Part shown: piece after piece, positions 8,816 to 23,187 of the stretch | How the letters are laid out: every line of letters starts with the position of its first letter | How positions within the stretch are numbered: position 1 is the stretch's first letter | Origin: a virus | Strand: one strand, 5' to 3' | IMG/VR virus record: IMGVR_UViG_3300026455_000065 | Coordinates: 1-23,187 of that record | DNA length: 23,187 nt | Translations under genes and position numbers: made by a program | The notes under the pieces: model-generated | The model's database searches: none | Seen by the model: only the letters and a program-made list of their open reading frames with translations | Told to the model about the DNA's origin: nothing

Positions 8816-9919
8816 TTACATCGGTCCACCTCCGCCACCACATGATTGTGATCCTACGTCTGTTACATTACCCATTGAATCAATTTCAATCCAACTAAAT
8901 TGACCATCATTGTATGTATTTCCGTATTGTGTTGTTTTTATTGCGTAAACATAACCTGATCCAGGCCCAACAAATGGGTCGCCAGCAGAATCGTATACAG
9001 GATTATTAAGCATTCCTGAAATAGTTGATGATGTTGATTTTATTACCCCCGACATTATATAACCTGGGCTACTACAATATGTGCTACCAGTTAAACTTAC
9101 ATCAACCGGAGAAGCAATATAAAATTCATTAAGCAATGTTGGTGTTAATGTTGGTGTTGGCGTTGCAGTATATTCTTGACAATCGCGAACATCTAGATTC
9201 ATTTGACCGGAACCTCCAGTTCCTCCTCCTTGATTACAATCTATTTGTTGTACATATAGCTGATATGTGCCTGGTGTTGTTAATGTATATCCTGTTGGTG
9301 AGAATGTTGGTGTGTTACTATTAACTTGTGTTAATGTAAATTGTTGAATATCAACCCCTGTACTTGTTCTTAAATATGCATATGCGTATCTTGTTCCTGT
9401 ACCACTGTAGAAGTAACCTTGTGGTTCAACTGTTACTTTGTATCCGCTTGCCAACGTAAATGTTGATAAATCTGAACCACTACAAGTACCTGTTGTTGTT
9501 AAATCACCGCTTAAACAAGTTGTTGGTGTTACTGTAGGTGTAATTGTTGGATTGATAGTTGGTGTAGTGGTTGTGGTAGGTGTAATTGTTGGGTTAATAG
9601 TTGGTGTTGTTGTTGGCGTGATCGTTGGATTAACAGTAGTAGAAGTTGTTGTTGGTGTTGGTGTCGCTCCTGGTATACCTGTAATAGAAATACATTGTGA
9701 TGTTCCTGAACAATCACCTCCATCAACTTTAACAAATAAACTAACCACGTTATCGGGTATTCCTGTTAATGTTTTTGGAAAACTAGTTACAGCTTGTGAT
9801 GTCGCTAAGCTTGTACAGCCGCTTCCACAAGATGCACCTGTACATCCTGATATTGAAACGGTTTGTCCTGTAATTCCGTTTCCTACTGTTCCTAAATTTA
9901 CCGAAGCGTTAAATGCCAT
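8816..9919 (-). CDS. Stalked virion fibre/adhesin-like protein, 367 residues
   Basis: Residues 1-85 form a Cys-containing N-terminal domain (SGCTGASCGSGC, then GIPDNVVSLFVKV). Then comes a Thr-Pro stalk built from repeats such as NPTITPTTTP (about residues 86-133), a beta-rich middle domain, a second short stalk (TATPTPTLTPT) and a C-terminal domain ending in a glycine run and PM. It lies 29 bases downstream of the 392-residue gene and 23 bases upstream of the 733-residue gene. The GIPDN-type segment resembles VPDN in the 1645-residue protein, suggesting a shared virion-attachment domain. The C-terminal domain probably faces the outside. No known receptor-binding family is recognised. Confidence 0.75.
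   Translation of the reverse strand: MAFNASVNLGTVGNGITGQTVSISGCTGASCGSGCTSLATSQAVTSFPKTLTGIPDNVVSLFVKVDGGDCSGTSQCISITGIPGATPTPTTTSTTVNPTITPTTTPTINPTITPTTTTTPTINPTITPTVTPTTCLSGDLTTTGTCSGSDLSTFTLASGYKVTVEPQGYFYSGTGTRYAYAYLRTSTGVDIQQFTLTQVNSNTPTFSPTGYTLTTPGTYQLYVQQIDCNQGGGTGGSGQMNLDVRDCQEYTATPTPTLTPTLLNEFYIASPVDVSLTGSTYCSSPGYIMSGVIKSTSSTISGMLNNPVYDSAGDPFVGPGSGYVYAIKTTQYGNTYNDGQFSWIEIDSMGNVTDVGSQSCGGGGGPM
9521..9670 (-). repeat. Thr-Pro stalk repeats in the 367-residue protein gene
   Basis: Short tandem units coding for NPTITPTTTP-like blocks. The coding strand is A/C-rich and the plus strand reads as GTTGGTGT-type repeats. The repeat NPTITPT occurs three times. Confidence 0.8.
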
Positions 9920-9948
9920 ATGTTATAAATATTATTTCTTTTATTTTA

Positions 9949-11127
9949 TTAATTCGGTACTTCAAACTGGCTACATGTTATTTGTGTACCTGTGCATGGG
10001 CCAACTTGTGCGTAACATGGTGAAAATTCACTATCTTTACAATAATATGTGGTTTGTACACAATTAGATTGACAATCTTGTAATGTGGTATATAAACCAC
10101 TTCCGTCATATACTGCTTCACATACACCATTATTACAATTATATGTTACCGCTGAAGATGTTGGTGTTATGGTTGGGGATGGGGTTGGGTCTGCGCATAC
10201 ACTATAATTTGGTGTTATTGACGCATAACTATCGATTGTGATTGTCTCAGCTTGACAATAGCTTTCTTGACCACCACAATCAACATATCCTGTTGTTGTT
10301 ATATCAACGTAATTTGATAGGTTACCTGCGGTTATTGTTATAGAATAAGTTTCAGGGGTTGTCCCTCCGTAACAATAGTTTCTTGTTGCGTTTACCATAA
10401 CTTCTACACTAACCCCAGCAATTGCACTTAAGGTTGCGGTAACCCTTGTTATTGTGTTATTATAAGGCCCCTGACCTAAACAATTTATTTGTTCATTGCT
10501 AATTGACTCACTAATTGTTATACAACCACTACCTCCAGATGTTGTTACTGTTGGTGTTCCAGTTACTGTTGGTGTAATTGTAGGTGTAGATGTTGTTGTC
10601 GGTGTACCTGTACTAGTCGGTGTTACTCCTTGAGTACTTGTTGGTGTTGGTGTACTTGTTGGTGTTGGTGTTACCCCAGCAGTACTTGTTGGCGTTGCTG
10701 TATTAGTTGATGTACTTGTTGGTGTTCCTGTTGGTGAGGGTGTTATCACTTGATCACTTATTGCTGATCCTCCACTAAATCTACAATCAATATAGTTCGA
10801 TGTACCCCCAGTAAATAAACAACAATTTATACAATTATCATAAACCTCTTCGTGATTTGTGAAAACATTTTCAATCACATAGCCTCCGGTTACGGTGTCT
10901 AAAATTTTAAACCAGTATTGAGTACTGTACGATGCCCCGCTAAAAATAATAGGATTTGTGTTGTAATATGATCCATCAGAACTTGCTTGATAAGTTGTAG
11001 TAGAATTTGGATAATATGTATACCCAGTTGTGACCACGGATTCATTACCTGCGGTTGGCCCAGTTTTATATAATAACTTAAATGGGTTTGGTGAAACAAT
11101 ACCTTTTAATTTTAGATTTAATCCCAT
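9949..11127 (-). CDS. Cys-rich stalked virion protein, 392 residues
   Basis: I choose ATG at 11127 (MGLNLKLKGIV). The frame also allows a TTG at 11142, but that adds only five residues (YLCS after it). An N-terminal domain of about 120 residues includes STQYWFKILD and the cluster CINCCLF. A long Thr-Pro stalk follows (about 10540-10749), then a domain of about 120 residues with paired Cys, a second short stalk (PTPSPTITPT), and a final Cys-rich module with NCNNGVCEAVYDG and LQDCQSNC. The gene follows an intrinsic terminator, so it may have its own promoter. The architecture matches its stalked neighbours. A displayed fibre or adhesin is likely, target unknown. Confidence 0.75.
   Translation of the reverse strand: MGLNLKLKGIVSPNPFKLLYKTGPTAGNESVVTTGYTYYPNSTTTYQASSDGSYYNTNPIIFSGASYSTQYWFKILDTVTGGYVIENVFTNHEEVYDNCINCCLFTGGTSNYIDCRFSGGSAISDQVITPSPTGTPTSTSTNTATPTSTAGVTPTPTSTPTPTSTQGVTPTSTGTPTTTSTPTITPTVTGTPTVTTSGGSGCITISESISNEQINCLGQGPYNNTITRVTATLSAIAGVSVEVMVNATRNYCYGGTTPETYSITITAGNLSNYVDITTTGYVDCGGQESYCQAETITIDSYASITPNYSVCADPTPSPTITPTSSAVTYNCNNGVCEAVYDGSGLYTTLQDCQSNCVQTTYYCKDSEFSPCYAQVGPCTGTQITCSQFEVPN
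10540..10749 (-). repeat. Thr-Pro stalk repeats in the 392-residue protein gene
   Basis: Degenerate 6-base units coding for TP, SP and TS dipeptides, with two Gly-Val interruptions (AGVTPTPT and QGVTPTST). Confidence 0.8.
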
Positions 11128-11162
11128 ACTACATAAATACAACTCTTATAAAATATAAATAA

Positions 11163-11188
11163 AAAACCCCTTGTTTTGAAGGGGTTTT
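11163..11188 (-). terminator. Intrinsic terminator after the 188-residue gene
   Basis: AAAACCCCTT (11163-11172) pairs perfectly with AAGGGGTTTT (11179-11188) around a 6-base loop, 21 bases past the stop of the 188-residue gene. On the minus strand the stem runs into TTTTTT and further T/A. The A-rich other side would also allow it to work on the plus strand. It divides the virion block into two transcription units. Confidence 0.88.
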
Positions 11189-11209
11189 AAAATATTATTT
11201 AATTTAAAA

Positions 11210-11776
11210 TTAGTTGGCACATGGTACAAAACATTCACTACCAGATACTGTGGTACAAATACAGTTATCTGTTGACCATAAGTATGGGTCGCAAGTAACT
11301 TCCATACTGTATTGAACACAAACCGGAGATTGGTATGAACCTCCTTGCATAACGCATATGTAGGCGGTATATGTTCCATTTCCATTATCCATACTTTGTA
11401 AATTTTGGATTAGAGTCGTTGTAACCACACCTTCCATGTCTCTATATCTAACATATAGATCATTTGGTATTGTTGAATAAGTCAGACTGTAACAATATCC
11501 ATACGCTGATGGGGTTACTGTTGGTGTTGGTGTTGATTGTGATGGGAAAGCTACCCATTGTTGAGTATTTGTGCAAACCCCAGTACTAGCAATTGTTCCA
11601 CCGGTTGTTGAATCAGTAATACCTGTAATTGTATGTCCGGTTAATAACTGTTCTTTGGTTATTCCCGTCGCTAATTCTGTTGTTACGTTAGCGTCAGTTG
11701 TTCCCGAAATATTAAAAGGCCCAGCTACATATGTTGCGCCAGAATATTGATTTTGTAATGTGAAAGTAACTATCAT
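11210..11776 (-). CDS. Small stalked virion protein, 188 residues
   Basis: The N-terminal domain (about 1-80) contains GPFNIS and ATGITKEQLL, similar to GPYNIY and ATGITYSDLT in the 1645-residue protein. A minimal stalk (STPTPTVTPS) leads to a C-terminal domain of about 95 residues with NDLYVRYRD, NGTYTAYIC, PVCVQYSMEVTCDPY and a Cys-rich end. This C-terminal domain resembles modules I have seen in virion proteins of marine and freshwater phages, though I cannot name the family. It looks like a short member of the same fibre set. An intrinsic terminator follows. The 55-base leader upstream is almost entirely A/T and holds AATATTTATATT. Confidence 0.72.
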   Translation of the reverse strand: MIVTFTLQNQYSGATYVAGPFNISGTTDANVTTELATGITKEQLLTGHTITGITDSTTGGTIASTGVCTNTQQWVAFPSQSTPTPTVTPSAYGYCYSLTYSTIPNDLYVRYRDMEGVVTTTLIQNLQSMDNGNGTYTAYICVMQGGSYQSPVCVQYSMEVTCDPYLWSTDNCICTTVSGSECFVPCAN

Positions 11777-11831
11777 TGTTTTTTCTTTTTAATATAAATA
11801 TTCGTTTATTTGGTTTTATTTGCTTTATATT

Positions 11832-14800
11832 TTATACTTGTTGACCTCCGCTACCACTACTACAGTTAGTACAATTGTTATAGATTACTGCGTTATTTCC
11901 GTCAGCTAAATGAATTGAACTAGTTGAACACTGCGTACCAGTTGAGTAGTCGATTTGGTAACATACATTATTGATTTTCACCACTTTAGTTCCACCTAAG
12001 AATGCTGATACTAATACATCTGGTGAAGTCATTGTTAAATATGCGTTGTCACTACATCTGATAACTTGATATGTATAATTTACCGCTTCGTCAACTAAAA
12101 CTGTTATTCCGCTTGTAACTACACATCCGTTTGCATCTGTTACTTCTAAGCAGAATCCGCCAGAAGTTAGACCTGTAACACTTCTACTTGTATTATCTGA
12201 AGTGACGTTAGTATATGTCGCTCTTAATGTGCCGCCACAAGTTGTATATGGCGAAGATTCGTCTTCATATAATCTATATGTCTTAGGCCACACACCACCT
12301 GCAGATGAAATTGTCAAGCTACCTCCATTTGGATCAGCGCATGGTGGGTTTACAGGACTACTAATTGAAGCTGATTGTGCTGTAGGTTGAGTTATGATAG
12401 CTTCATATGTAGCAACACAACCACTAGAATCTTTTATGTATACAGTATATGTACCCGCAGTTTTATTACTAAATGTTAATGTACCAAGTGTAAATGAATA
12501 GTAATCAGATACACCACCTGTTAATGATGCGGTAATTTGGCCACTATTTCCACTTGTTGGGTTAGTTAATGTAATTGAGCCGTTTGATCCTCCGTTACAA
12601 GTCACATTAGAAACTGAAATATTAGCATAAGGCGCCGCTTTACTTAAGTTAACAGATTGTGTTGATGATAAACATCCGTTGCTATCTTTTACTCTAAAGG
12701 TATATGTTGTAGCAAAGAGACTAGTAAATGAATTACTTAATTGCCATGTTGATCCACCATCTTTAGAGTATTCGTACGAGCCAGTTCCTCCACCAGCCCC
12801 AACTGTAACAGCACCATTAGAGCTATTATAACATGTTGGATATGTTGCATTTGTACTGATTGTCACTTGAGTTGGAACACTTATTGAAGTAGAATATGTT
12901 TGCTCACATCCTGAACCATCTTTAACAAAAATTGTGTACGATCCGTCACCTAAACTCGAATATGTTTGTGGGAGATTTCCATAAGTTCCTCCGGCATTTA
13001 ATTTTGATTGATACGTGCCGCCATTTCCTCCTGTACCTGCAGAAACAACTATTGAACCTGTACCACCAAAACAAGATGGATTAGTCACTTGAATCTGCGC
13101 ATTAGGAGCTGATTTAGATAAGGTTTGTGATACTGTTGCGGTACAATCATTAGCATCTTTTACATACAATGTATATGTACCTGTACCTAAATTGCTAAAC
13201 GTTGCGCTTGCTTGGTAGTTTGTACCGTCTTTTGAATAAGTTTTTGTTCCTGTTCCACCAGATGCCGAAACAACTATTTCACCATTTGTACCATTCCAAC
13301 AAGTTGGATTTGTTGCAGAGCTAACACTTATTGTTAATGCAGATGGTTGTGTGATTGTATATGTATAAGACGCCTTACATCCTGTTGCATCTTTAATATA
13401 TAATGTATATACCCCAGGTGATAATGAGTCAAATAATTTTTGTACCGTATAGTATGTTACATCATTTAATGAAACAGTATACGGCCCATTATTACCACCA
13501 CTTGCGCCAACAACATTTAATGATCCAGTTCCTCCATTACAAGAAACGTTTGTTTGGTTGACCACCGGTGTTGGTGCGGACTTAGTTATGTCAACCGTTA
13601 AACCAGTAGATTGGCATCCACTATTATCTTTTGATTTAACAGTATAAACACCAGAACTTAAGTTAGTGAAAACACCACTACTTTGCCATGTTGCCCCGTT
13701 ATCTTTAGAATATTGATATGTTCCTACACCCCCAGAAGCACTTAATGTAAATCCACCGTTAGTACTATTCCAACAAGTTGGATACACCAATGAAGATGAA
13801 CTAACTGTTACTTGAGATGGTTGAGTTATTGTTACTGCATACGTATTTTCACAACCAGCACTATCTTTCACATAAATTGTGTATGAACCTGCTGTTAGTG
13901 ATGAATATGTTCTTGAGGTTGTAATTACTTGGTAAGTTCCTCCGGCATTTAATTTTGTTGAATATGGTCCGCCTTGACCACCAGCTAAATCAGAAACAAC
14001 TATTGACCCATCGTTACCTCCATTACAAGTTACATTTGTTTGTGATATTGTTGCAGTAACTTGTGTTCTACTTAATGTTACTGAAGTTGATCCAGTACAA
14101 TTATTACTATCTTTTGCATAAATTGTATATGTTCCATTAGCTAAATTGCTAAATGTTGTCCCAGTCTGATAGCTTGAACCATCTTTAGAATAGGTATAAC
14201 CACTTCCAGACCCGCCAGATGCAGATGATACTGTAATTGAACCATCGGTACTACCAACACACGTTGGGTTTGTTCCAGATGCACTAAGTGAGACTACTGC
14301 TGGTTGAGTTACTGTTACTACAGCACTACTACCAACTTCACCATAAGAATCTTTGGCATATAAAATATATGAATTAGCAGTTAAGCCGCTAAATACATTT
14401 GACGACTGATAAGTTGACCCATCTTTAGAATATGTATAACTTGCAGTTCCGCCAGTGACACCCGATACTGTTATAACACCGTTTGATCCGCCATTACACG
14501 TCACATTTGTTGTTACAGATGCTCCAACAGATATTGTAACATTTGTAATAGATATTGTTATTGTTTTGTCATAGGTTAGTCCACCTGCATCTGTTGCTCT
14601 AACTCTTATTGAATATGTTGATTGTGTTTCAAAATCAAAAATGGCCGCACTTCTTAATGTGCTTCCTGAAATTGAGAAACTACTATTATCTGGATATGTT
14701 GATGTATCTACTAATGCATATGTGAATGTATCACCAGCGTCTGGGTCTGTAGAACTAAATGTACCAACAGTTGTTCCGGTTGGTACGTTTTCTGATATTG

Positions 14801-16769
14801 ATGAAGAACTTAAACTTATATTTGTTGGGGCTTCATTAACATTTGTAACAGAAATTGCAAAAGTTTGATCTACTGTTAATCCGCCCGCATCTGTTGATCT
14901 AACTTTGATTGAATAAGAAGATTTAGATTCAAAATTAAATATTGCTGCAGATCTTAGTGATGAACCAACAATGGTAAAGCTGCTATTATCGGGATAATTT
15001 ACTGTATCTGTTAATGTATAAGTAAACGTATCCCCTGCATCTGGATCTGTTGTTGATAACGTACCAATTGTTGTTCCGGTCGCAGAATTTTCTGCAATTG
15101 TGTTTGATGATAATGAAATGCCCGTTGGTGTTTCGTTTACATTCGTAATTGTAATCGTTAATGTTTTATCAAATGTTAATCCACCAGCATCTGTTGATCT
15201 AACCCTAATGCTATACGAACTTTTGCTTTCATAATTAAAAACTGCAGCAGATCTAAGTGTTGATCCACTTATGCTAAAGCTACTGTTATCAGGATAGGTT
15301 GCAGTATCATATAGCTGATATGTAAATGTATCACCAGCATCTGGATCTGTTGTTGATAACGTACCAATTGTTGTACCAGTAGCAACATTTTCAGCAATTG
15401 AAGACGCGCTTAATGAAATATTTGTTGGTGTTTCGTTAACATTTGTTACATTGATTGTTAATGTTCCATCATACGTTAACCCACCTTGGTCAGTAACCCT
15501 AATTTTAATTGAATATGAAGATTTGGTTTCATAATTAAAGATAACAGCAGATCTAAGTGTTGATCCACTTATGCTAAAGCTACTATTATCAGGATAATTT
15601 ATGGTATCTGTAAATGCGTAAGTAAATGTCGATCCAGCATCATAATCTAAACCAGATAGAGTTCCAATAGTTGTTCCTGTTGCAGAGTTTTCTGCAATTG
15701 TATTACTGCTTATTGTTAAACCGTAAGGTGCCTCATTAACGTTTGTAATTGGTACTGTTAATACACCATCATATGTTAATCCGCCAGCATCTGTTGTTCT
15801 TACTTTAATTGAATATGAATTTTTTGTTTCATAGTCAAAAACCGCAGCTGATTTTAAAACCCCCGCTGTTGTTAATGTAAAACTATTATTATCTGGATAA
15901 TTTATTGTATCTGTTAATGCATATGTAAATGTATCACCAGAATCAACATCCAAAGCCGTTATTGTACCAACAGTTGTACCTGTTGCTGAATTTTCAGGAA
16001 TTGAACCACTGAAATTCAAGCCGTATGGTGCTTCATTTACATTGTTTACATAAATTGTAAATGTTTTATCAAAATATAATCCGCCACTATCTGTTGATCT
16101 AATTGTTACTGTGTATGAAGTTGCTGCTTCATAATTAAAAGATTCAGATGATCTTAAACTACTACCAGATATATTAAATTTAAACCCATTACCACCTGGT
16201 TGAATGCTGTACGTATGTGTATCACCCGGATTTGCATCTGTTGTGCTCAATGTACCGATAATAGTGTTTATAGCACTATTTTCATTTATACTATCATTAC
16301 TTAATGTAATATCCGTTGGTGTTGAGTTTGTTGGGGTTGGTGTCGCGGTAGATGTTGGTGTCGGCGTTATAATAGTCGCCGAGGTATCAATAATAAATTC
16401 ACAATTTGGTGTATAAGTTGATGTTGGCGTTGCTGTAAATGTTGGGGTTGGGGTTGGTGTTATAGTAGGTGTAGCAGTAATTGTTGGTGTTGTTGTTGGT
16501 GTAGCTGTTGGTGTTGGTGTTGGTAAAATTAAATCGTCACCGATTAAACAATATGGATCTGTGTTATATAAAATTATTTTATACGCATTATCTGGTACCG
16601 ATACCAATACGCCGTTTATGTTTGTTAAATCTGAATATGTTATTCCTGTTGCAGGTAGTGACGTTGAAACTACAGTAGCAATATTCAACGGATCAACAAC
16701 ATCATAATAAATGTTGTATGGCCCTGGTGCTGTCCCTGAAGATATTGTTACTGTGAATTGTTTTGCCAT
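11832..16769 (-). CDS. Giant fibre/adhesin: Thr-Pro stalk, six cadherin-like and about ten SprB repeats
   Basis: The 1645-residue protein is almost entirely repeats. Residues 1-82 form the N-terminal domain, and 83-151 a Thr-Pro stalk holding one CEFIID unit. Six cadherin-like repeats occupy 151-744, each about 100 residues, with ENSATGTT, DPDAGDTFTY, YPDNSSF and closing TNVNE(A/T)P. About ten SprB-type repeats span 745-1557, each about 80 residues, with TCNGGS, YTYSKDG, YTIYVKD and GC. A Cys-rich tail ends the protein (1558-1645). The DPDAGD segments resemble calcium-binding turns of cadherin-like domains. SprB repeats are named for the surface adhesin of gliding Flavobacterium, so this phage fibre uses host-type adhesive modules. 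No signal peptide is seen, as expected for a virion protein. Receptor binding is inferred. Confidence 0.88.
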   Translation of the reverse strand: MAKQFTVTISSGTAPGPYNIYYDVVDPLNIATVVSTSLPATGITYSDLTNINGVLVSVPDNAYKIILYNTDPYCLIGDDLILPTPTPTATPTTTPTITATPTITPTPTPTFTATPTSTYTPNCEFIIDTSATIITPTPTSTATPTPTNSTPTDITLSNDSINENSAINTIIGTLSTTDANPGDTHTYSIQPGGNGFKFNISGSSLRSSESFNYEAATSYTVTIRSTDSGGLYFDKTFTIYVNNVNEAPYGLNFSGSIPENSATGTTVGTITALDVDSGDTFTYALTDTINYPDNNSFTLTTAGVLKSAAVFDYETKNSYSIKVRTTDAGGLTYDGVLTVPITNVNEAPYGLTISSNTIAENSATGTTIGTLSGLDYDAGSTFTYAFTDTINYPDNSSFSISGSTLRSAVIFNYETKSSYSIKIRVTDQGGLTYDGTLTINVTNVNETPTNISLSASSIAENVATGTTIGTLSTTDPDAGDTFTYQLYDTATYPDNSSFSISGSTLRSAAVFNYESKSSYSIRVRSTDAGGLTFDKTLTITITNVNETPTGISLSSNTIAENSATGTTIGTLSTTDPDAGDTFTYTLTDTVNYPDNSSFTIVGSSLRSAAIFNFESKSSYSIKVRSTDAGGLTVDQTFAISVTNVNEAPTNISLSSSSISENVPTGTTVGTFSSTDPDAGDTFTYALVDTSTYPDNSSFSISGSTLRSAAIFDFETQSTYSIRVRATDAGGLTYDKTITISITNVTISVGASVTTNVTCNGGSNGVITVSGVTGGTASYTYSKDGSTYQSSNVFSGLTANSYILYAKDSYGEVGSSAVVTVTQPAVVSLSASGTNPTCVGSTDGSITVSSASGGSGSGYTYSKDGSSYQTGTTFSNLANGTYTIYAKDSNNCTGSTSVTLSRTQVTATISQTNVTCNGGNDGSIVVSDLAGGQGGPYSTKLNAGGTYQVITTSRTYSSLTAGSYTIYVKDSAGCENTYAVTITQPSQVTVSSSSLVYPTCWNSTNGGFTLSASGGVGTYQYSKDNGATWQSSGVFTNLSSGVYTVKSKDNSGCQSTGLTVDITKSAPTPVVNQTNVSCNGGTGSLNVVGASGGNNGPYTVSLNDVTYYTVQKLFDSLSPGVYTLYIKDATGCKASYTYTITQPSALTISVSSATNPTCWNGTNGEIVVSASGGTGTKTYSKDGTNYQASATFSNLGTGTYTLYVKDANDCTATVSQTLSKSAPNAQIQVTNPSCFGGTGSIVVSAGTGGNGGTYQSKLNAGGTYGNLPQTYSSLGDGSYTIFVKDGSGCEQTYSTSISVPTQVTISTNATYPTCYNSSNGAVTVGAGGGTGSYEYSKDGGSTWQLSNSFTSLFATTYTFRVKDSNGCLSSTQSVNLSKAAPYANISVSNVTCNGGSNGSITLTNPTSGNSGQITASLTGGVSDYYSFTLGTLTFSNKTAGTYTVYIKDSSGCVATYEAIITQPTAQSASISSPVNPPCADPNGGSLTISSAGGVWPKTYRLYEDESSPYTTCGGTLRATYTNVTSDNTSRSVTGLTSGGFCLEVTDANGCVVTSGITVLVDEAVNYTYQVIRCSDNAYLTMTSPDVLVSAFLGGTKVVKINNVCYQIDYSTGTQCSTSSIHLADGNNAVIYNNCTNCSSGSGGQQV
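12099..14537 (-). repeat. About ten tandem SprB-type repeats
   Basis: Units of about 77-95 residues. Most carry a Cys near the start (TCNGG or TCWN) and another near the end (KDxxGC). From the third unit two subtypes alternate. Confidence 0.82.
14538..16319 (-). repeat. Six tandem cadherin-like repeats, about 300 bases each
   Basis: Repeats 2-5 are exactly 100 residues, the first 98 and the last about 96. Copies are in 300-base register, and some 38-52-base stretches are identical or differ at one base between neighbours. Confidence 0.85.
16317..16523 (-). repeat. Thr-Pro stalk repeats in the giant fibre gene
   Basis: Degenerate 6-base units coding for (T/P)n with one CEFIID unit (residues 123-128). 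It links the N-terminal domain to the first cadherin repeat. Confidence 0.82.
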
Positions 16770-16788
16770 TATTCTATATAATTATTCA

Positions 16789-18360
16789 TTAACTTTGATT
16801 ACACAGGTTTAAATTATACCCCAATGTGTTTAGTGCTGTTATTATTTGATCCGCATAATACTGAGCATTTGATCCTGCTGTAACATTTGAAATGTAGGTT
16901 ATTTCACTCTTATCTGATAGACCATTTGTTCCCGAATATGCTCCAGCCCCGTTTTTAACGGCAGCTAAGAATTGTCTAAATCCGTCATACGAATCTGGTC
17001 CTGTATTAACTCTAAACACAATACCTCTATAATAACTGCTATTCGGAACATTGTCAAGCGTTGATCTTAAGCCACTTATGTCTGTATCATATGTTCCTGT
17101 TCTGACGCTAATATTAAATGAACTACCGTCAGCAGCATATGGTGAAGATTCATCTTGGAATACTAAATTTATAACCTTAGTTATACCAGCTGTTGTTCCA
17201 GTTGTGTTCAATATGTACATCGTTCTCTCTGTACCACCAGTTTTACTTGAGAAGTTGCTTACCGTTACGTTTTGATCATATGTGTTATAATCATTATTGT
17301 AGAATTGAACAAGACAATCTCTTAAAATGGTATCTCTCATAGTTTGTAATGGTGCTAATGTTGAATTCATTGAGCCGCTATCATCAAACCAAATATTAAT
17401 TTCAGTATTTTCATCAACAACTAATGGTGTACCAAACGCAGCTTGGAACGCACAATCAGGTGTATAAGTTGATGTTGGCGTTGCTGTTGGTGTTTCAGTT
17501 ACCGTTGGTGTTGCAGTAGAGGTTGGGGTTGCTGTTGGCGTTTCAGTTGTTGTTGGTGTAGAAGTTGAAGTAGGTGTTGGTGTGGCGATTACCGCAACAG
17601 TATCTATTACAAACTCACAATTTGGTGTATAAGTAGATGTTGGTGTTTCAGTTATCGTTGGTGTCGCAGTAGATGTTGAAGTTGGCGTTTGTGTGATAGT
17701 TGGTGTCTCAGTAGACGTAGGTGTCTCTGTTATTGTAGGTGTTGAAGTTGGTGTTGGTGTAGCAATTATAGCAATAGTATCGATAATAAAATCACAATTT
17801 GGTGTATATGTCTCTGTTGGGGTAATTGTAATAGTAGGTGTCTCTGTTGGCGTCGGTGTCTCGGTTGTAGTTGGGGTTTGAGTTATTGTTGGTGTTCCGG
17901 TAGACGTTGGTGTTGGTGTTGGTGTTGCAATAATAGCATCGATGTTAATCATAAACTCACAACTATCTGAAGAGGTCACCGTTGGTGTTTCTGTGATAGT
18001 TGGGGTTGTAGTAAATGTAGGGGTTGGTGTTGCAATTATTGCATTAATATCAATTATAAATTCACAACTATCTGAAGATGTTACTGTTGGTGTTTCAGTA
18101 GGTGTAAATGTGATTGTTGGGGTTGTTGTTGGGGTTGGTGTTACATTTGGTACAATTTCTAAATTACATGTAAAACCCTCAAGCTCATTTTTAAAATTAA
18201 AATCATATGTACCATAGTAATAATCGGATGTCCAAAAATAAGGTATAAGTACATTGGTGCCAATATTGACAGCTGTTCCTCCACTATATGGGTGGAAAAC
18301 AACGTCAGCATAATAACCATTGTATAAGCCAGATGTACTATATAATCTTATTGTTGCCAT
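16789..18360 (-). CDS. Stalked virion protein with von Willebrand A-like domain, 523 residues
   Basis: Residues 1-72 form a small aromatic N-terminal domain ([14 protein letters not shown]). Residues 73-300 are a Thr-Pro stalk containing four Cys-Glu/Asp-Phe units near residues 99, 133, 189 and 249 and a degenerate fifth (PDCAF at 301). From about 315 a von Willebrand A-like fold begins: [11 protein letters not shown] gives the MIDAS pattern DxSxS (D326, S328, S330), followed by helix- and strand-prone stretches to a CNQS end. VWA domains bind proteins through a divalent metal. It sits three bases after the C1q-like gene and 19 bases before the giant fibre gene. The VWA call rests on one motif plus fold length. 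The threonine and third acidic MIDAS positions are not clearly assignable by eye. Confidence 0.78.
17461..18144 (-). repeat. Thr-Pro stalk with four CEF..D units in the VWA-protein gene
   Basis: About 228 residues of TPT, TET and TST units are punctuated by four copies of (S/N)C(E/D)F(I/V/M)I(D/N), each followed by an Ala-Ile-Ile-Ala-Thr-Pro-like end. Confidence 0.85.
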
Positions 18361-18363
18361 TTA

Positions 18364-18957
18364 TTATACTTGTGTTAATGTTGCTATTACTGATGGTATT
18401 GACGGCCCAAGGGATGGGGTCAATGCTCTTATTTGTATATTACTATCTGTTGTAGCCCACGCAATTTCAACGTTATCACCACTACTTAAGTTAGGGTATA
18501 TGATATTCCATGCGGCAACAATATATTGACCATTATTTGCAAATGTTATTGCGGTATTTGAATTTGTCACATTTTGACCATTTTTCTTAAACCATATATA
18601 GATGTTTTCGGTTGTTCCTCCTTGAACTCTATATAATTGAGCAGAAAATTGTAAATTATATGACCCAGGATTACTAACAATCATTTGTGTTCCATTTGCC
18701 CAAGTACAACCATTTGTTGCATCAAGACTATTGAATGTCATTAGATGTTCGGTATTTGTTGTTCCTGTTTGAGTAACGGAACTACTATATGAACCAAAAA
18801 ATCTTGTTGACCCTGTCGTTATAACATTACCAAATAAATCGTCATATGTGATTGCACTTGAACTATATGTTGGCCCATTTCCTTGTGCCATATAAAATAA
18901 CGCGCCATTTGTTGGGGTTGTTAATCTTTGTAATTCCGAAATTCTAACTATACTCAT
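18364..18957 (-). CDS. Phage fibre-type protein with C1q/TNF-like jelly-roll C-terminus
   Basis: The 197-residue protein opens with ISELQRLTTPTNGALFYMAQG and a following ITYDDLF, an N-terminal pattern common in phage fibre proteins. The C-terminal half (about 85-197) reads as a jelly roll: YNLQFSAQLYR, NIYIWFKKNGQNV, YIVAAWN, SSGDNVEIAW and a closing strand IPSVIATLTQV. This order matches C1q/TNF-like domains found in many tailed-phage virions, usually forming trimeric tips. It is the only short gene in this part of the block without a Thr-Pro stalk. It lies between the baseplate-like and VWA-like genes, and its product may form a trimeric knob or adaptor. Confidence 0.75.
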   Translation of the reverse strand: MSIVRISELQRLTTPTNGALFYMAQGNGPTYSSSAITYDDLFGNVITTGSTRFFGSYSSSVTQTGTTNTEHLMTFNSLDATNGCTWANGTQMIVSNPGSYNLQFSAQLYRVQGGTTENIYIWFKKNGQNVTNSNTAITFANNGQYIVAAWNIIYPNLSSGDNVEIAWATTDSNIQIRALTPSLGPSIPSVIATLTQV

Positions 18958-18979
18958 TTTATTTAAATATTTTTTTTGT

Positions 18980-21900
18980 TTATTCTACTATTAATATATC
19001 AGTATTATTTTCATCTGCAATAAAACTTGCACCATTTTCAACTATTATCCCCTCTGAACTTTCAACCACTTCATATGCCATATCACAAGACCCTTCGGTA
19101 AATGTAATTGTTGGTGTAGTTGTTATTGTTGGTGTAGTAGTAATTGTTGGTGTTGGTGTTGCAATCGTTGCATTTACATCAACAACAAATTCACAACTAT
19201 CCGATGATGTTGGGGTTTCAGTTACTGTTGGTGTAGTTGTGATCGTTGGCGTAGGTGTAGCAATTATAGCAACAGTATCAATAATAAAATCACAATTAGA
19301 TGTGAAAGTTGATGTAGGTGTTATAGTAACACTTGGTGTTGGTGTGGCGATTACCGCAACAGTGTCTATTACAAATTCACAATTTGGTGTGTAAGTAGAG
19401 GTGGGGGTGATTGTTATGCTTGGTGTTGGGGTAGCAATTACCGCAACAGTATCAACCATAAATTCACAATTAGGTGTTGATGTTGACGTTGTTGTTGGTG
19501 TCGGCGTTGTTATTACAATATTTGTGTCAATAACAAATTCACAATTTGGTGTATCTGTTACTGTAGGTGTGTTAGTTGGTGTCTCAGTTATAGTAGGTGT
19601 AGCGGTACTACTTGGTGTACTGGTAGGGGTATTAGTTGATGTTTGAGTTACAGTAGGGGTTGGGGTTGCTGTTGGTGTACCCGTTGCTGTTGGTGTACCC
19701 GTTGCTGTTGGTGTACTGGTAGATGTATTTGTTGGTGTCGGTGTAGATGTTGGGGTTGGGGTAACTATTGGATATGCGCTACCACAAGGTACTGCTGGAA
19801 TTATAATACCACATTCAGTTGTATAATTTCTTACAGGATCTTCAATTTCAGTTTTACAACATTGATTATCAATATAATATTGACTTAAATTCATATTAAG
19901 TCTATTAAACTTAGTATATGAATGTTGTATTAAAACTTGTGTTCCATTATTACCATTAAATAATACTAAATTTTGAGGTTGTGTTCCTGTTACATTAATG
20001 TTATAATAAAGATTATTTTCACAGTAATTTAAATTAACTGCAATGACCTCTAATAATTCACCTTTTTCTGTAATTAAAAAATCTCCGGTATCATAGTAAT
20101 CTGATGGATAATAACAACAAGGCTCTTCAGGTGTTTCTGGTTTTAATTGCAAAAACTCTGGAGATCTAGAATCAAAGAAATAACCATCTCGTTTAGATAC
20201 TCTATATGTTGCTTCATCAACCTCTTTATTTGTGTAAACACGTAGTTTTGTTGTTGGTAAAACTTCAATAACAACCTGTTGACCATTTGAAGTCATACCT
20301 GTTATTTCACTTTTCTTTACTGACCCCAAACAATCAATATCACTAATTGTATGCGTTGAATAATCATATGAAAAAGAATAATCATTGTTTTCACTAGCAT
20401 ATTCAAACATGCTTGATGAAAGTGTAGTGCATGATAAGTATGTTGCGCCTAATATAACATTTCCATTAACTAAATCTTTAACGTCTTTTTTAACAAGAGT
20501 ACCTGCAGCTAAATAACTAGTAATGTTTGCCGGTGTTGTAGATGAATTAATTGTAGCGCCACTAACAACAATAACTTTTGTATTGTGTTTTAAACCATAA
20601 TTGTATGTGTTTCTATATTGTACTTTTGGTACTAACGTGTAACCGGTGTTAACAACCAATGGTAAATCAGGTGCTTCAGTTGGATACTCAACGTATCTTA
20701 ATGCTAATCCTTCAATTTTTACTTTTTTATCACAGTTTGCTGCATCAGTAAAAATTAAATCAATAACTTCATCTTCTCTTACATTAGTAAGTTTGAACTT
20801 ACAATTTTCTCCAACAATTTGGAAGAAACTTGTATCTGTATAGGTTGGGTGATATCCTGTACTAATGTTATTTCCAGGTGTACAATTTCTTTGAACGTAT
20901 ACTCCCCATCCACTATCGTTACCAGATTGAACTGTAACACCTGTTAAGCTAACAATAACATCTGTTGCAACTTTACAAGTTGGATAACCAGAATAAACAT
21001 CACAAGACGCATCAAATGATAAATCTAAATGACATTTAGGTTCAGTATATTTGTAATCAACATCAAAATAAAAATCTAAATTATCTTTTACTAAACATTC
21101 TCCGGAAGAGTTTGTGTGTGCAATAAATTTAACTTTTTCAACACCATTATTATCTGTGAAAAATTCATAAGATATTAATTGTGTTTTTCCCGATAATACA
21201 GCATTTCCAGGAACATATGAAGGAGTATTAAATGCGCTGTATTGTGTTTCTGTTTGATTAATCTGATTAACAAGCGCGGCTATTGCGTTTTTCCAAGCAG
21301 CCTTTATTGTTGTTAAATTTAAATTGATCCAATTTTTATATTCACAAATAAGTGGTATTTTAGATGATGAAGAAGTAAGTACACTACAGTTTTCTACTGC
21401 GGTAAAGCCGGTACCGAATAGTGTGCTACCGGTTAAAACTACCTGTGTTGTCCCACTATAATCAGTTCCATCAATATCAATATGTAAAGTAAATGTTACA
21501 CCACTAAATTCAATTAAACCTCTTAAGTTATCTGGGTCTCCAATTATTGTTTCAAGATCTTCTTCAATTACTGTTTCAAATTCTGGATATAAATTTTCTA
21601 CAATCTCTAACGGCTTACATGGTTTTCTATATGAAAACTTAGGTCTACCAAAAACATTGTTTTCAATTAAATTACCCCCCATCCATAATGTTGTTGATGG
21701 TATAATTTGTTCTAAAACATTTGACCAATATGGACTCATCTGATTAACAAAATCAGATGTTGATATCATATCATAAGTTGTATATCCAGACGCTACTAAT
21801 TGATTTATGTAATCCTGATAAACATCCTCTAAAGCGATATAATTTTTCTTATATCTTATTATATTCGAATTAGTTATTTGACTTGAGAAAATATTTTCTA

Positions 21901-23187
21901 AGTATTGCGCAAAAGTTACACCTGTTTGTGGTGGTAAACTATTTGTTCCAAAAGTCACTTCAAGTTCTCTAGACTTTCTCCAAATATCATAATTAACAGC
22001 ATTTGCTGCAGATACAAAAACGTTTATGTTTTTTCTATTAAGAATTAAATTTGAAAGAGCTTCGTCTTCTAAAATTTGCCCCTGCTGGTTATCAATTTCA
22101 CTTTGTATTGTAAAACCATAATCCAAACCAGGTAATGTTCTATAGTTGTCAAAAAACTCTTCACCATATGAATATGGTTTCGATGTTGTTAGTAAAGTTT
22201 TAGTTCTCCCTGATAATACTGAATTTTCTGTATCAAGAATATCTGAAGATCTGTGATCTAAAGTAACGCTTGACCAACCTGAACCCATTTGGAAGAAAAC
22301 ATTTTCTTGGTTTGTTGTTGGGGCTTTAGGTAGTAACGTTGTTTCATCAATAGGATAATCCGTTAATTGACTATTTGTTGTTAACCCTGTTAAAGAAGAA
22401 ACGGTATATGTATATGTTTCGCTATTAAATGTTACATTGTTGCTAACATTAATATTATTTAATGTGTTATTTAAATCATCTAAAGTAGATGGTGGTAAAG
22501 CGCTAGTTACTTTATAAACATATTCGTCTATTTTCACCATTGGATCTGGTGCACCGATAAACTTTAAGAAAAATTCAATACTACTTCTAGTACCTTTTGA
22601 TTTGTATATAAATGCTAGATTAACTAATAATCTTCTGTAAAATTCAAGTTCAGCTTCTACTAGATTTTTACCAATAGCTTGTCCATTGTAAACAGTAGAA
22701 GATGCTTTATATATTTGTTCTTCTAAACTTTTTTGATCAAATAAATTGATGGTATTAAGACCAAGTGTATTTGCTAAATTTTTAAGAAAAACATCTGGAA
22801 TATTATCGATTGCGTCATAAGAAACATTTCTCATGTTCGCAATATTATCAATATAAGATTTTACCTTATCAAAACTCTGACCATATAATTGAAATATCTT
22901 ATCAATTTTTTGGTCTTCAGTATCAAATTCAAATAATTGTGGGGCAACAAGGAATCTTGTAACTAAGTTAGATTTATAGTTATCAATTTCAGTTGCTAAA
23001 TCACTTAGACGTGTTATGTACTCTTCAAACTTAAGACCGGTAATTTGAATATTATATCCGTCTTTTGATGTTGGCCAGTTAACTAATATAGAAATTAGTT
23101 CTGTTTTTGTTTCATCTAAACTAGTTCTAGGAACCGTAAATCCAGCTTGATATATTGGATAGGTATCTCTATTTAATAATGTTTGCT
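18980..23187 (-). CDS. Baseplate-like structural protein with C-terminal Thr-Pro stalk, 5' end cut by window edge
   Basis: The frame is open from the stop at 18980 right through the window edge, at least 1401 codons. The Met at 22834 is internal: upstream codons continue in frame with protein-like text (PQLFEFDTEDQKID, DKVKSYIDNIANM). The N-terminal third contains YKSKGTRSSIEFFLKFIG (window residues 194-211), a motif I associate with tail or baseplate wedge proteins of large myophages. The centre is beta-rich with Cys pairs. From about residue 1141 a Thr-Pro stalk carries five CEF..D units, and the end is acidic (DENNTDILIVE). It is the most upstream gene in the window. Fusion of a baseplate-type body to the stalk suggests the stalks project from the baseplate. 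Confidence 0.82.
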   Translation of the reverse strand, partial: QTLLNRDTYPIYQAGFTVPRTSLDETKTELISILVNWPTSKDGYNIQITGLKFEEYITRLSDLATEIDNYKSNLVTRFLVAPQLFEFDTEDQKIDKIFQLYGQSFDKVKSYIDNIANMRNVSYDAIDNIPDVFLKNLANTLGLNTINLFDQKSLEEQIYKASSTVYNGQAIGKNLVEAELEFYRRLLVNLAFIYKSKGTRSSIEFFLKFIGAPDPMVKIDEYVYKVTSALPPSTLDDLNNTLNNINVSNNVTFNSETYTYTVSSLTGLTTNSQLTDYPIDETTLLPKAPTTNQENVFFQMGSGWSSVTLDHRSSDILDTENSVLSGRTKTLLTTSKPYSYGEEFFDNYRTLPGLDYGFTIQSEIDNQQGQILEDEALSNLILNRKNINVFVSAANAVNYDIWRKSRELEVTFGTNSLPPQTGVTFAQYLENIFSSQITNSNIIRYKKNYIALEDVYQDYINQLVASGYTTYDMISTSDFVNQMSPYWSNVLEQIIPSTTLWMGGNLIENNVFGRPKFSYRKPCKPLEIVENLYPEFETVIEEDLETIIGDPDNLRGLIEFSGVTFTLHIDIDGTDYSGTTQVVLTGSTLFGTGFTAVENCSVLTSSSSKIPLICEYKNWINLNLTTIKAAWKNAIAALVNQINQTETQYSAFNTPSYVPGNAVLSGKTQLISYEFFTDNNGVEKVKFIAHTNSSGECLVKDNLDFYFDVDYKYTEPKCHLDLSFDASCDVYSGYPTCKVATDVIVSLTGVTVQSGNDSGWGVYVQRNCTPGNNISTGYHPTYTDTSFFQIVGENCKFKLTNVREDEVIDLIFTDAANCDKKVKIEGLALRYVEYPTEAPDLPLVVNTGYTLVPKVQYRNTYNYGLKHNTKVIVVSGATINSSTTPANITSYLAAGTLVKKDVKDLVNGNVILGATYLSCTTLSSSMFEYASENNDYSFSYDYSTHTISDIDCLGSVKKSEITGMTSNGQQVVIEVLPTTKLRVYTNKEVDEATYRVSKRDGYFFDSRSPEFLQLKPETPEEPCCYYPSDYYDTGDFLITEKGELLEVIAVNLNYCENNLYYNINVTGTQPQNLVLFNGNNGTQVLIQHSYTKFNRLNMNLSQYYIDNQCCKTEIEDPVRNYTTECGIIIPAVPCGSAYPIVTPTPTSTPTPTNTSTSTPTATGTPTATGTPTATPTPTVTQTSTNTPTSTPSSTATPTITETPTNTPTVTDTPNCEFVIDTNIVITTPTPTTTSTSTPNCEFMVDTVAVIATPTPSITITPTSTYTPNCEFVIDTVAVIATPTPSVTITPTSTFTSNCDFIIDTVAIIATPTPTITTTPTVTETPTSSDSCEFVVDVNATIATPTPTITTTPTITTTPTITFTEGSCDMAYEVVESSEGIIVENGASFIADENNTDILIVE
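19102..19764 (-). repeat. Thr-Pro stalk with five CEF..D units in the baseplate-like gene
   Basis: About 220 residues. The first part is pure TP/TS/TG repeats, including an 18-base tandem at 19665-19718. The second part has five copies of C(E/D)F(V/M/I)(I/V)D separated by TPTPT linkers. Confidence 0.85.

Follow-up and report, generated by a model that had tools for sequence, protein, structure and literature searches.

Our analysis indicates that this locus, which belongs to a large T4-like phage, is likely a multi-slot, tip-exchanging adhesion array lying in the row of baseplate genes. The window, i.e., the whole stretch of 23,187 nucleotides analysed, is, judging from its relatives, a 23-kb piece of the genome of an uncultured, contractile-tailed T4-like phage. 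Six of seven consecutive minus-strand genes (8816-23185), here named A to F, share one plan consisting of a head, a Thr-Pro stalk and a tip, while the seventh is stalkless (Table 1). This plan had been described in an earlier note and was confirmed: all seven ORFs are present in the order given there, and a stalk detector (T+P-rich sequence, 16-residue window) was positive in exactly those six genes and in none of the other eight genes of the window. Among relatives, the heads stay ordered and conserved while the tips vary, and the view that the stalks are the joints at which tips are swapped is well supported by the sequence comparisons presented below.

Table 1. Features of the array; handles such as L016 denote related sequences, and percentages are identities.
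Feature	Position	Strand	Basis or remark
Gene A: baseplate-associated body, stalk and short C-terminal piece	18980..23185	-	5' end beyond the window
Gene A stalk, five beads (an 18-residue sequence and variants)	19085..19789	-	stalk detector
C1q-like gene (probable), stalkless	18364..18957	-	85% relatives in 4 contigs
Gene B head (MATIRLYS...)	18172..18360	-	homologous head on the 5472-aa protein of L196
Gene B stalk, four beads	17464..18171	-	stalk detector
Gene B tip, predicted VWA fold with DDSGS motif	16789..17463	-	structure model and motif
Gene C head (MAKQF...)	16545..16769	-	head comparison and model
Gene C stalk, one bead	16293..16544	-	stalk detector
Gene C shaft, cadherin then SprB repeats	12060..16292, approximate	-	PF00028, PF13573
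Gene C C-terminal cap, varying between close relatives	11832..12053, approximate	-	L016/L020 matches
Gene D head (MIVTF...)	11558..11776	-	relatives' matches
Gene D stalk, 20 residues	11498..11557	-	stalk detector; place kept in 9/11
Gene D Cys-rich tip, 8 Cys in 95 aa	11210..11497	-	sequence count
Gene E head (MGLN...)	10759..11142	-	98% to L016, residues 1-133
Gene E stalk	10525..10758	-	L016 DNA match stops within, residue 169
Gene E Cys-rich tip, 14 Cys in 191 aa	9949..10524	-	homologous tip on L040 gene A (50%)
Gene F head (MAFN...)	9695..9919	-	89-92% in L016/L020
Gene F stalk	9491..9694	-	L016 DNA match stops within, residue 131
Gene F tip	8816..9490	-	end 69% to L026
Conserved unstalked gene closing the array	6591..8792	-	no significant family match

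Phage hallmark genes, none of which lies in the 23-kb window itself, were found in seven related contigs (118-311 kb, which may be fragments), namely a sheath in 7/7, a gp23-type capsid in 5/7, Baseplate_J in 5/7 and a terminase in 4/7. Baseplate_J is located 8-9 kb upstream of gene A in the same gene row (5/7 contigs), and this position, together with the domain types, suggests that the array proteins belong to the virion and act as adhesive fibres. The window edge truncates gene A (1401 residues here, 1653 in L023), whose body is 38-97% identical among relatives. This body and the neighbouring 305-aa and 588-aa genes gave no significant PHROG, NCBIfam or PDB match (weak ones from E 0.03 up), and a Pfam scan, applied to gene A alone of the three, returned nothing over the cut-off (VipE, E 0.04, fell below it). 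No match was found in INPHARED for gene A (window part), the 305-aa gene or the VWA tip. A reading of the gene A C-terminal stub as a VWA remnant was dropped, since 165/2000 shuffles scored equally high. Relatives of one neighbouring gene number at least 572 among IMG/VR contigs. The gp23-like capsid of L081 is nearest to those of an uncultured 484-kb phage and of Rhodothermus RM378, Microcystis Mel-JY01 and Flavobacterium immuto phages (28-43%); a Bacteroidota host is only a guess, and in a scan of genome contigs with the 305-aa gene 20 stretches matched, with no relative among them.

The stalks measure 225 residues in A (in 5 segments), 232 in B, 84 in C, 20 in D, 78 in E (+23) and 68 in F (+21, +24). 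Their coverage was equalled by 0/300 shuffles of each protein's own composition for A, B and F, by 3/300 for E, 10/300 for C and 32/300 for D; the test is conservative because stalk residues were kept in that composition, and by these counts the stalk of D alone is not beyond chance and that of C only modestly so. The D stalk is nevertheless kept at the same place in 9 of the 11 listed D genes, being absent in L026 and L064 (a fused ORF of L021 was set aside). A Thr-Pro pattern was present in 7/8 uncultured records vs 0/5 reference phages; genome G002 scores 0 by the strict pattern, yet its proteins (L017) carry stalks. At the other extreme, a 5472-residue stalk protein (in L196) has a head homologous to that of gene B (38%, E 2.9e-10; hhalign 98%), and a stalk can reach 4757 residues.

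Tip exchange was assessed in 17 representatives kept out of 35 genomes, after removal of those with at least 95% core identity to another; the window itself (represented by L023/L057), heads or tips cut by contig ends and tips under 30 residues were left out. Tip homology was undetectable in 125/157 pairs sharing a head (one of which concerns an upstream gene outside the array, subtype 10) and in 62/91 without gene A; some of these, especially in gene A (63/66 'unrelated'), may be short tips whose homology was missed and not true replacements. Conversely, 26 pairs have a tip in common on different heads, with tip identities of, e.g., 80% against a core identity of 52%, 79% against 64% and 66% against 43%. 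Tip identity exceeded core identity in 12/26 of these pairs; values at or below the core (14/26) are expected for old transfers or a common tip family. In addition, a 110-aa middle domain carried with head F in L020 and with head E in L040 shows 95% identity, at a core identity of 44%. N-terminal alignments end at a median of 0 residues from the stalk start (IQR -20 to +8). They end within the stalk span +/-12 residues in 68/109 cases vs 25% expected by length, with 40/109 breaks more than 12 residues ahead of the stalk. In five unstalked neighbour genes used as a control, C-terminal similarity was lost in 0/319 pairs, although control members were picked for comparable length and for matches spanning half of the gene, which favours full-length homologues; an initial 14/333 breaks all fell in two genes, which with complete ORFs give 0/43. 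Fixed gene content without shuffling, named in the earlier note as the contrary outcome, was not found among the 17 representatives, and its proposal of stalks as tip-swapping joints is upheld by varying tips under constant heads, the same tip on different heads, breaks at or near the stalk and the crossover pair described below. Not every slot differs in each pair: between L023 and L016 the D tips are homologous and the F tips keep a short end piece. For the genes of the window itself, the D tip is homologous to that of L016 (55%), the E tip shares a 23-residue match only (E 0.007) and in the F tip only a 32-residue piece matches (47%). Gene E probably starts at an internal ATG near 11127, as most relatives begin MGL....

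The VWA-like tip of gene B is invisible to Pfam, and neither a PDB profile search nor Foldseek against the PDB (E<=0.001) gave a match, but the predicted structure (pLDDT 90.8) supports a von Willebrand A fold resembling integrin beta I. The VIA list is headed by integrin beta I-like (Z 10.3) and VWF A1 (Z 9.1) domains, the best match having an rmsd of 3.2 over 156 aligned residues. The phage-encoded domain shares 5-19% identity with the 50 matches listed, and its metal binding is putative. The DxSxS motif, presumably of MIDAS type, occurs in 12/16 VWA tip rows including the window and is absent in L093-L096. This tip is found on three head types, namely B (window), a C-type head (L026, 79%) and gene A (L009, L091). 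Both families claimed for gene C scored above the Pfam cut-off, cadherin in 6 stretches (PF00028, E 3.3e-52) and SprB in 10 (PF13573, E 7.4e-38), and its shaft matches phrog_26672, 'virion structural protein' (E 6.5e-32). The seventh gene is stalkless and probably C1q-like; the label itself is drawn only from 2 of 13 matched INPHARED records ('cerebellin-1 domain', 'complement C1q-like protein 3 roll fold'), with one other annotated 'phage-associated hyaluronidase-like protein' and most 'hypothetical', while Pfam gave nothing over the cut-off and a PDB sequence search nothing relevant. In 12/13 of these relatives the match begins at residue 52 or later, so that the N-terminal part appears to be a separate module.

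Exchange also occurs away from stalks, in the gene C cap and the C1q-like gene. The match of gene C to L016 (78%) stops at residue 1569, past the SprB repeats and with no stalk at that point, whereas that to L020 (53%) runs to the end; in the C1q-like gene, similarity to its positional counterpart in L008 is limited to the first 68 residues (40%). Regarding the heads, the gene C model (pLDDT 87.8) found no convincing fold match (best YomS, Z 3.5; P22 head-binding domain, Z 2.5). The C, D and F heads link via those of L070/L048 (hhalign 81-96%; C-D directly 56%), and one origin for all heads was rejected, as B and E do not link to C, D and F.

A crossover inside a stalk, placing a VWA tip on protein A, is caught in the contig pair L008/L009. 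A single DNA match (95.9%, 5577 columns) runs through the gene A body and proximal stalk; in 90-base windows up to residue 1666 the best match of L009 is the L008-A stalk (19/22, 81-100%), and from 1726 to 1846 it is L008-B (9/9, 70-94%), with L009 running into the same VWA variant. In the junction zone (windows 1681-1816) resemblance to either L008 stretch is just 63-82%, which means that the exact donor was not L008-B itself. Stalk DNA of different slots in one genome (first 150 bases) shows longest exact matches with a median of 12, compared with 8 in heads and tips, and matches of at least 15 occur in 28% of 102 stalk pairs vs 0.00 of 2168 control comparisons. We propose that similar but codon-varied stalk DNA would be the common element of the slots, so that homeologous recombination or template switching within it could join tips in frame with both domains unharmed. 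This route remains a proposal because exact matches are short (maximum 23 within and 26 between genomes, with controls reaching 23 once or rarely). A conserved small head, or the large conserved body of gene A, would dock at a fixed tail site, the extended stalk would hold out the tip towards a surface target, and the VWA, cadherin-SprB, Cys-rich and C1q-like tips may bind host or other surfaces. We give about even chances to a stronger version, a dedicated exchange platform in which a length-tolerant, codon-varied Thr-Pro joint used across slots, tens to thousands of residues long, allows any tip on any head, serial middle domains or fusion to protein A; stalk reach would then extend from nanometres to possibly cell size.

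It might be argued that head-tip combinations are faked by metagenome misjoins at low-complexity Thr-Pro repeats. The comparison contigs do stem from IMG/VR metagenome data, stalk DNA is repetitive, ORFs of contig 3300008267_000919 (L021/L137) slip frame in the stalk and look like sequence errors, and L009 is a 6.7-kb contig ending just past the tip. We nonetheless consider such chimeras very unlikely: the same array recurs in contigs from four IMG data sets (L004, L005, L013, L016), exact stalk DNA in common is short, and the L009 junction zone is no plain splice between known copies. Furthermore, L091 also has VWA on gene A with downstream genes C-D-E-F in place (the C1q gene and B are missing), and the giant stalk is equally long in two assemblies with 99% of its 60-mers distinct. 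Slightly less probable again is fast divergence, whereby receptor selection erases tip homology under persisting heads with no exchange. Many unrelated-tip pairs have heads at just 32-65% identity, and the common piece in the L023/L016 F tips would fit as well; however, gene E heads 98% identical carry different tips, tips on unlike heads are more alike than core genes, and the L008/L009 pair shows a switch. Divergence is contradicted for these named cases and might still apply to certain ends of genes A and F.

A more serious contender, though still on the doubtful side, is that the stalked proteins are virion decorations loosely attaching to mucus, polysaccharide or particles, and not host-receptor fibres. 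The folds involved (cadherin, SprB, VWA and C1q-like) are generic to adhesion, and phage capsids carry Ig-like domains for which loose surface attachment has been proposed; the variety of tips on one phage and the very long stalks would also suit this role. On the other hand, the array is part of the baseplate gene row, and in gene A the stalk and tip are attached to a conserved body. Decoration is compatible with tip exchange.

Phage host range is largely set by tips, and an exchange array of this kind shows how, in nature, docking parts can stay fixed as tips pass between slots and from phage to phage. It offers a testable joint design, connects low-complexity sequence with a possible role in recombination and represents a natural plug-and-socket system with which phages can try out surface-binding domains. 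VWA/integrin-like, cadherin-SprB and C1q-like domains also become candidates for the adhesion repertoire of an uncultured phage group that is widespread.

Among known systems, T4 (gp37/gp38, gp12) has a similar baseplate, several types of fibre and distal adhesins that can be exchanged. Its fibres are beta-structured trimeric shafts, unlike the low-complexity Thr-Pro stalks described here, and PHROG searches of the array returned no T4 fibre family. Gene C was matched by 45 INPHARED records, from giant Caulobacter, Brevundimonas and Rhizobium phages; among the 20 listed, 19 match the cadherin block (34-38%) and LR756502 only the SprB block (31%), none spans head, cadherin and SprB together, and one, Gurke, is without the Thr-Pro pattern. 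We know of no Thr-Pro stalk array in the tailspikes of E. coli O-antigen phages. For these tailspikes, modularity and horizontal transfer of receptor-binding proteins are announced in the title of one report (PMC10408124). Our literature searches found no description of Thr-Pro stalk arrays or VWA tail tips, and the VWA domain in the retrieved part of PMC8651126 lies in CobT, not in a tail. Domain shuffling in phage receptor-binding proteins is already known, and an array with one common joint was not found in the literature searched. According to the retrieved sections of Smug et al. (2023; PMC10684548), fragments are common to otherwise unrelated tail fibres and spikes, and recent shuffling is tied to host interaction. 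The array resembles such mosaic proteins in that unrelated proteins carry a homologous tip (the 26 pairs) and a conserved N-terminus, presumably the virion anchor, precedes a variable C-terminus (the 125/157 pairs). The words 'stalk' and 'linker' are absent from the main text of that study as retrieved, and, in contrast to the proteins presented in it, the array is a row of slots with one low-complexity joint, whose tips cross between slots and reach protein A.

Across related uncultured phages (loci with L numbers), the heads of the stalked array genes stay while their tips change, and tips move between heads of different type. Loci were compared via gene A (55) and via the 733-aa gene closing the array (16), and head, middle and tip were delimited in 142 ORFs containing a stalk-like stretch, of which a few belonged to other genes. 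In 17 genomes below 95% core identity, 157 same-head pairs between different genomes could be judged; the tip was unmatched, i.e., without a match at E 1e-3 over half of the shorter tip, in 125 of them. C-terminal similarity of complete unstalked neighbour genes, used as a control with members picked as near full-length, was lost in 0 of 319 pairs. The clearest tip change concerns gene E, whose head is 98% identical to that of L016 over 133 residues, with nothing but a 23-residue match (E 0.007) past it. The gene F head is 89% identical to its L016 counterpart, the tips having only a 32-residue end piece in common (47%), and the gene F tip end matches L026 at 69%. Gene D, however, is a counter-case, its tip being homologous to the L016 gene D tip (55%). 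Gene E orthologues of 125-138 residues in L026, L064 and L052, with a head, little stalk and no real tip, are possibly natural tip losses. Residues 129-238 of the unstalked 733-aa gene are missing from the DNA alignment even with the close L016, L013, L005 and L020, hinting that its middle is another variable part.

Homologous tips were found on different head types in 26 pairs, with tip identity exceeding core identity in 12. For example, a 420-aa tip is 80% identical between the MGLN head (gene E type) of L038 and the MSKG head of L030, against 52% for the core, and the alignment begins at the residue directly after the L038 stalk. L026 carries the VWA tip of window gene B on a head of C type (79%), and in L009 and L091 it is gene A itself that bears this tip. 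L016 gene B has a 245-aa middle domain that reappears between gene A stalks in L030, L031 and L052 (69-72%). In L103 and L105-L107 a VWA domain forms the end of a protein that has ten stalk segments, and in L097-L102 and L104 it is carried by other proteins without comparable stalks. In L093-L096, from more distant phages, VWA lies directly behind a stalkless gene A body, with more residues after it, and the DxSGS motif is absent.

In 109 same-head pairs with different tips, the median distance between the end of the N-terminal alignment and the stalk start was 0 residues (IQR -20 to +8). With a margin of 12 residues on either side of the stalk span, 68 of the 109 ends fell inside, versus 25% expected by length; 40 lay before and 1 after. 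Between L023 and L016 the DNA breaks inside the stalks of B (residues 148-162), E (169) and F (131), the gene B break being an additional middle domain in L016. The clearest join is provided by L009 and L008, whose gene A bodies and proximal stalks share 95.9% DNA identity over 5577 columns. Starting at about residue 1700-1726, L009 more closely resembles the distal part of the L008 gene B stalk (9/9 windows, 70-94%) and continues past the stalk into the same VWA variant. The zone between these stretches is only 63-82% like either, pointing to a relative of L008 gene B as donor. L091 lacks the C1q gene and B, a layout that would fit recombination between A and B stalks with deletion of the intervening genes; L020 is likewise without both.

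When the first 150 bases of each stalk were compared between different slots of one genome, the longest exact match had a median of 12 and a maximum of 23, reaching at least 15 in 28% of 102 pairs. For heads and tips the median was 8, the fraction reaching 15 was 0.00 of 2168 comparisons, and the maximum was also 23. Because the stalk matches are short for classical homologous recombination, the route of exchange can only be inferred. Tips could be joined via homeologous recombination, template switch or end joining in stalk DNA, perhaps performed by SbcC/SbcD-like and RuvC-like proteins that the phage itself encodes, and a joint made of repeated residues would tolerate changes of length.

The earlier note had described six stalked genes among seven, and indeed a Thr-Pro stalk was found in 6/7 array genes and in 0/8 other window genes. 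The gene D stalk (20 residues) was matched in 32/300 composition shuffles and is within reach of chance, that of gene C, which carries cadherin and SprB repeats, is borderline (10/300), and those of A, B, E and F were matched more rarely or never. A stalk bead occurs five times in A, four in B and once in C; L008/L009 stalks bear another bead, CTFDIDV..., unlike that of the window. An AlphaFold2 model of the VWA tip from 16 related tips had a pLDDT of 90.8. VIA-align placed integrin beta I-like domains at the top (Z 10.3, rmsd 3.2, 156 aligned), followed by VWF A1 (Z 9.1). Foldseek alone gave weak PDB matches, and in BFVD it matched named VWFA-domain viral proteins (best E 6.3e-06); a profile search of PDB sequences with the tip matched no VWA chain. 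The DDSGS motif, which is of metal-binding type, is absent from 4/16 alignment rows.

The window is a complete IMG/VR record (23187 bases) and represents a genome fragment of an uncultured phage, essentially the same phage as L023/L057 (86-kb contig; 100% identity for gene A and 733-aa queries). Outside the array it carries genes for RuvC-like resolvase, primase, exonuclease and SbcC/SbcD-like proteins. The contractile sheath gene was present in all seven related contigs, gp23-type capsid and Baseplate_J genes in five each and Terminase_6N in four. Where present, Baseplate_J lies on the same strand as gene A, 8-9 kb upstream, immediately preceding the first gene of the loci, which encodes 1.2-1.4 thousand residues, and thus the row order is J, 1437-aa, 588, 277, 420, 305, A, (C1q), B, C, D, E, F, 733. 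Judging from gene position and domain types, the stalked genes may encode tail fibres, with the tips as putative binders.

For the 305-aa neighbour gene, IMG/VR contigs yielded at least 572 relatives. Among 78 newly read loci, many redundant, 45 of the 48 longer than 14 kb contained a stalked ORF. Complete gene A ORFs among those listed comprised 23 with a stalk and 20 without (a few of the 20 being fragments); the gene A extension is optional. An additional ORF within the L040 array starts METNQKGCLVQGTLISMADGTSKV..., which, judged by eye, looks like the Hint/intein type. A giant ORF of L196 was also observed in L199, L200 and L201. Its head is homologous to the window gene B head (38%, E 2.9e-10; hhalign 98%), and its unbroken Thr-Pro-Asn/Val stalk runs from residue 62 to 4818 (4757 residues) with varied codons (60-mers 99% distinct). 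L199, a second assembly, gives the same ORF length, a third assembly is open over at least 4247 residues and one relative has 2737. The other forward frames of the stalk hold 296 and 225 stops, indicating that its reading frame is kept. Polyproline II extends about 0.31 nm per residue, and a stalk so extended would span about 1.5 micrometres.

Coordinates of array features and of Thr-Pro patterns elsewhere (G numbers, scanned phage records)
Feature	Location	Strand	Remark
Bead CEF[VIM]IDT.A.I.TPTPT	window 16293-19789		ten copies in three genes
733-aa gene	window 6591-8792	-	
Short gene E orthologue	L026:21025-21438		
Short gene E orthologue	L064:1847-2263		
Short gene E orthologue	L052:17924-18301		
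Additional ORF	L040:15090-15593		
Giant ORF	L196:950-17368	+	5472 residues
Thr-Pro pattern	G008:C1:62940		outside array
Thr-Pro pattern	G013:C1:164360		outside array
Thr-Pro pattern	G003:C1:86771		outside array
Thr-Pro pattern	G001:C1:909		outside array

In searches of open-licence literature, no account was found of Thr-Pro stalk arrays or of VWA tips on phage tails. Domain shuffling is established for phage receptor-binding proteins (PMC10684548, PMC10408124).
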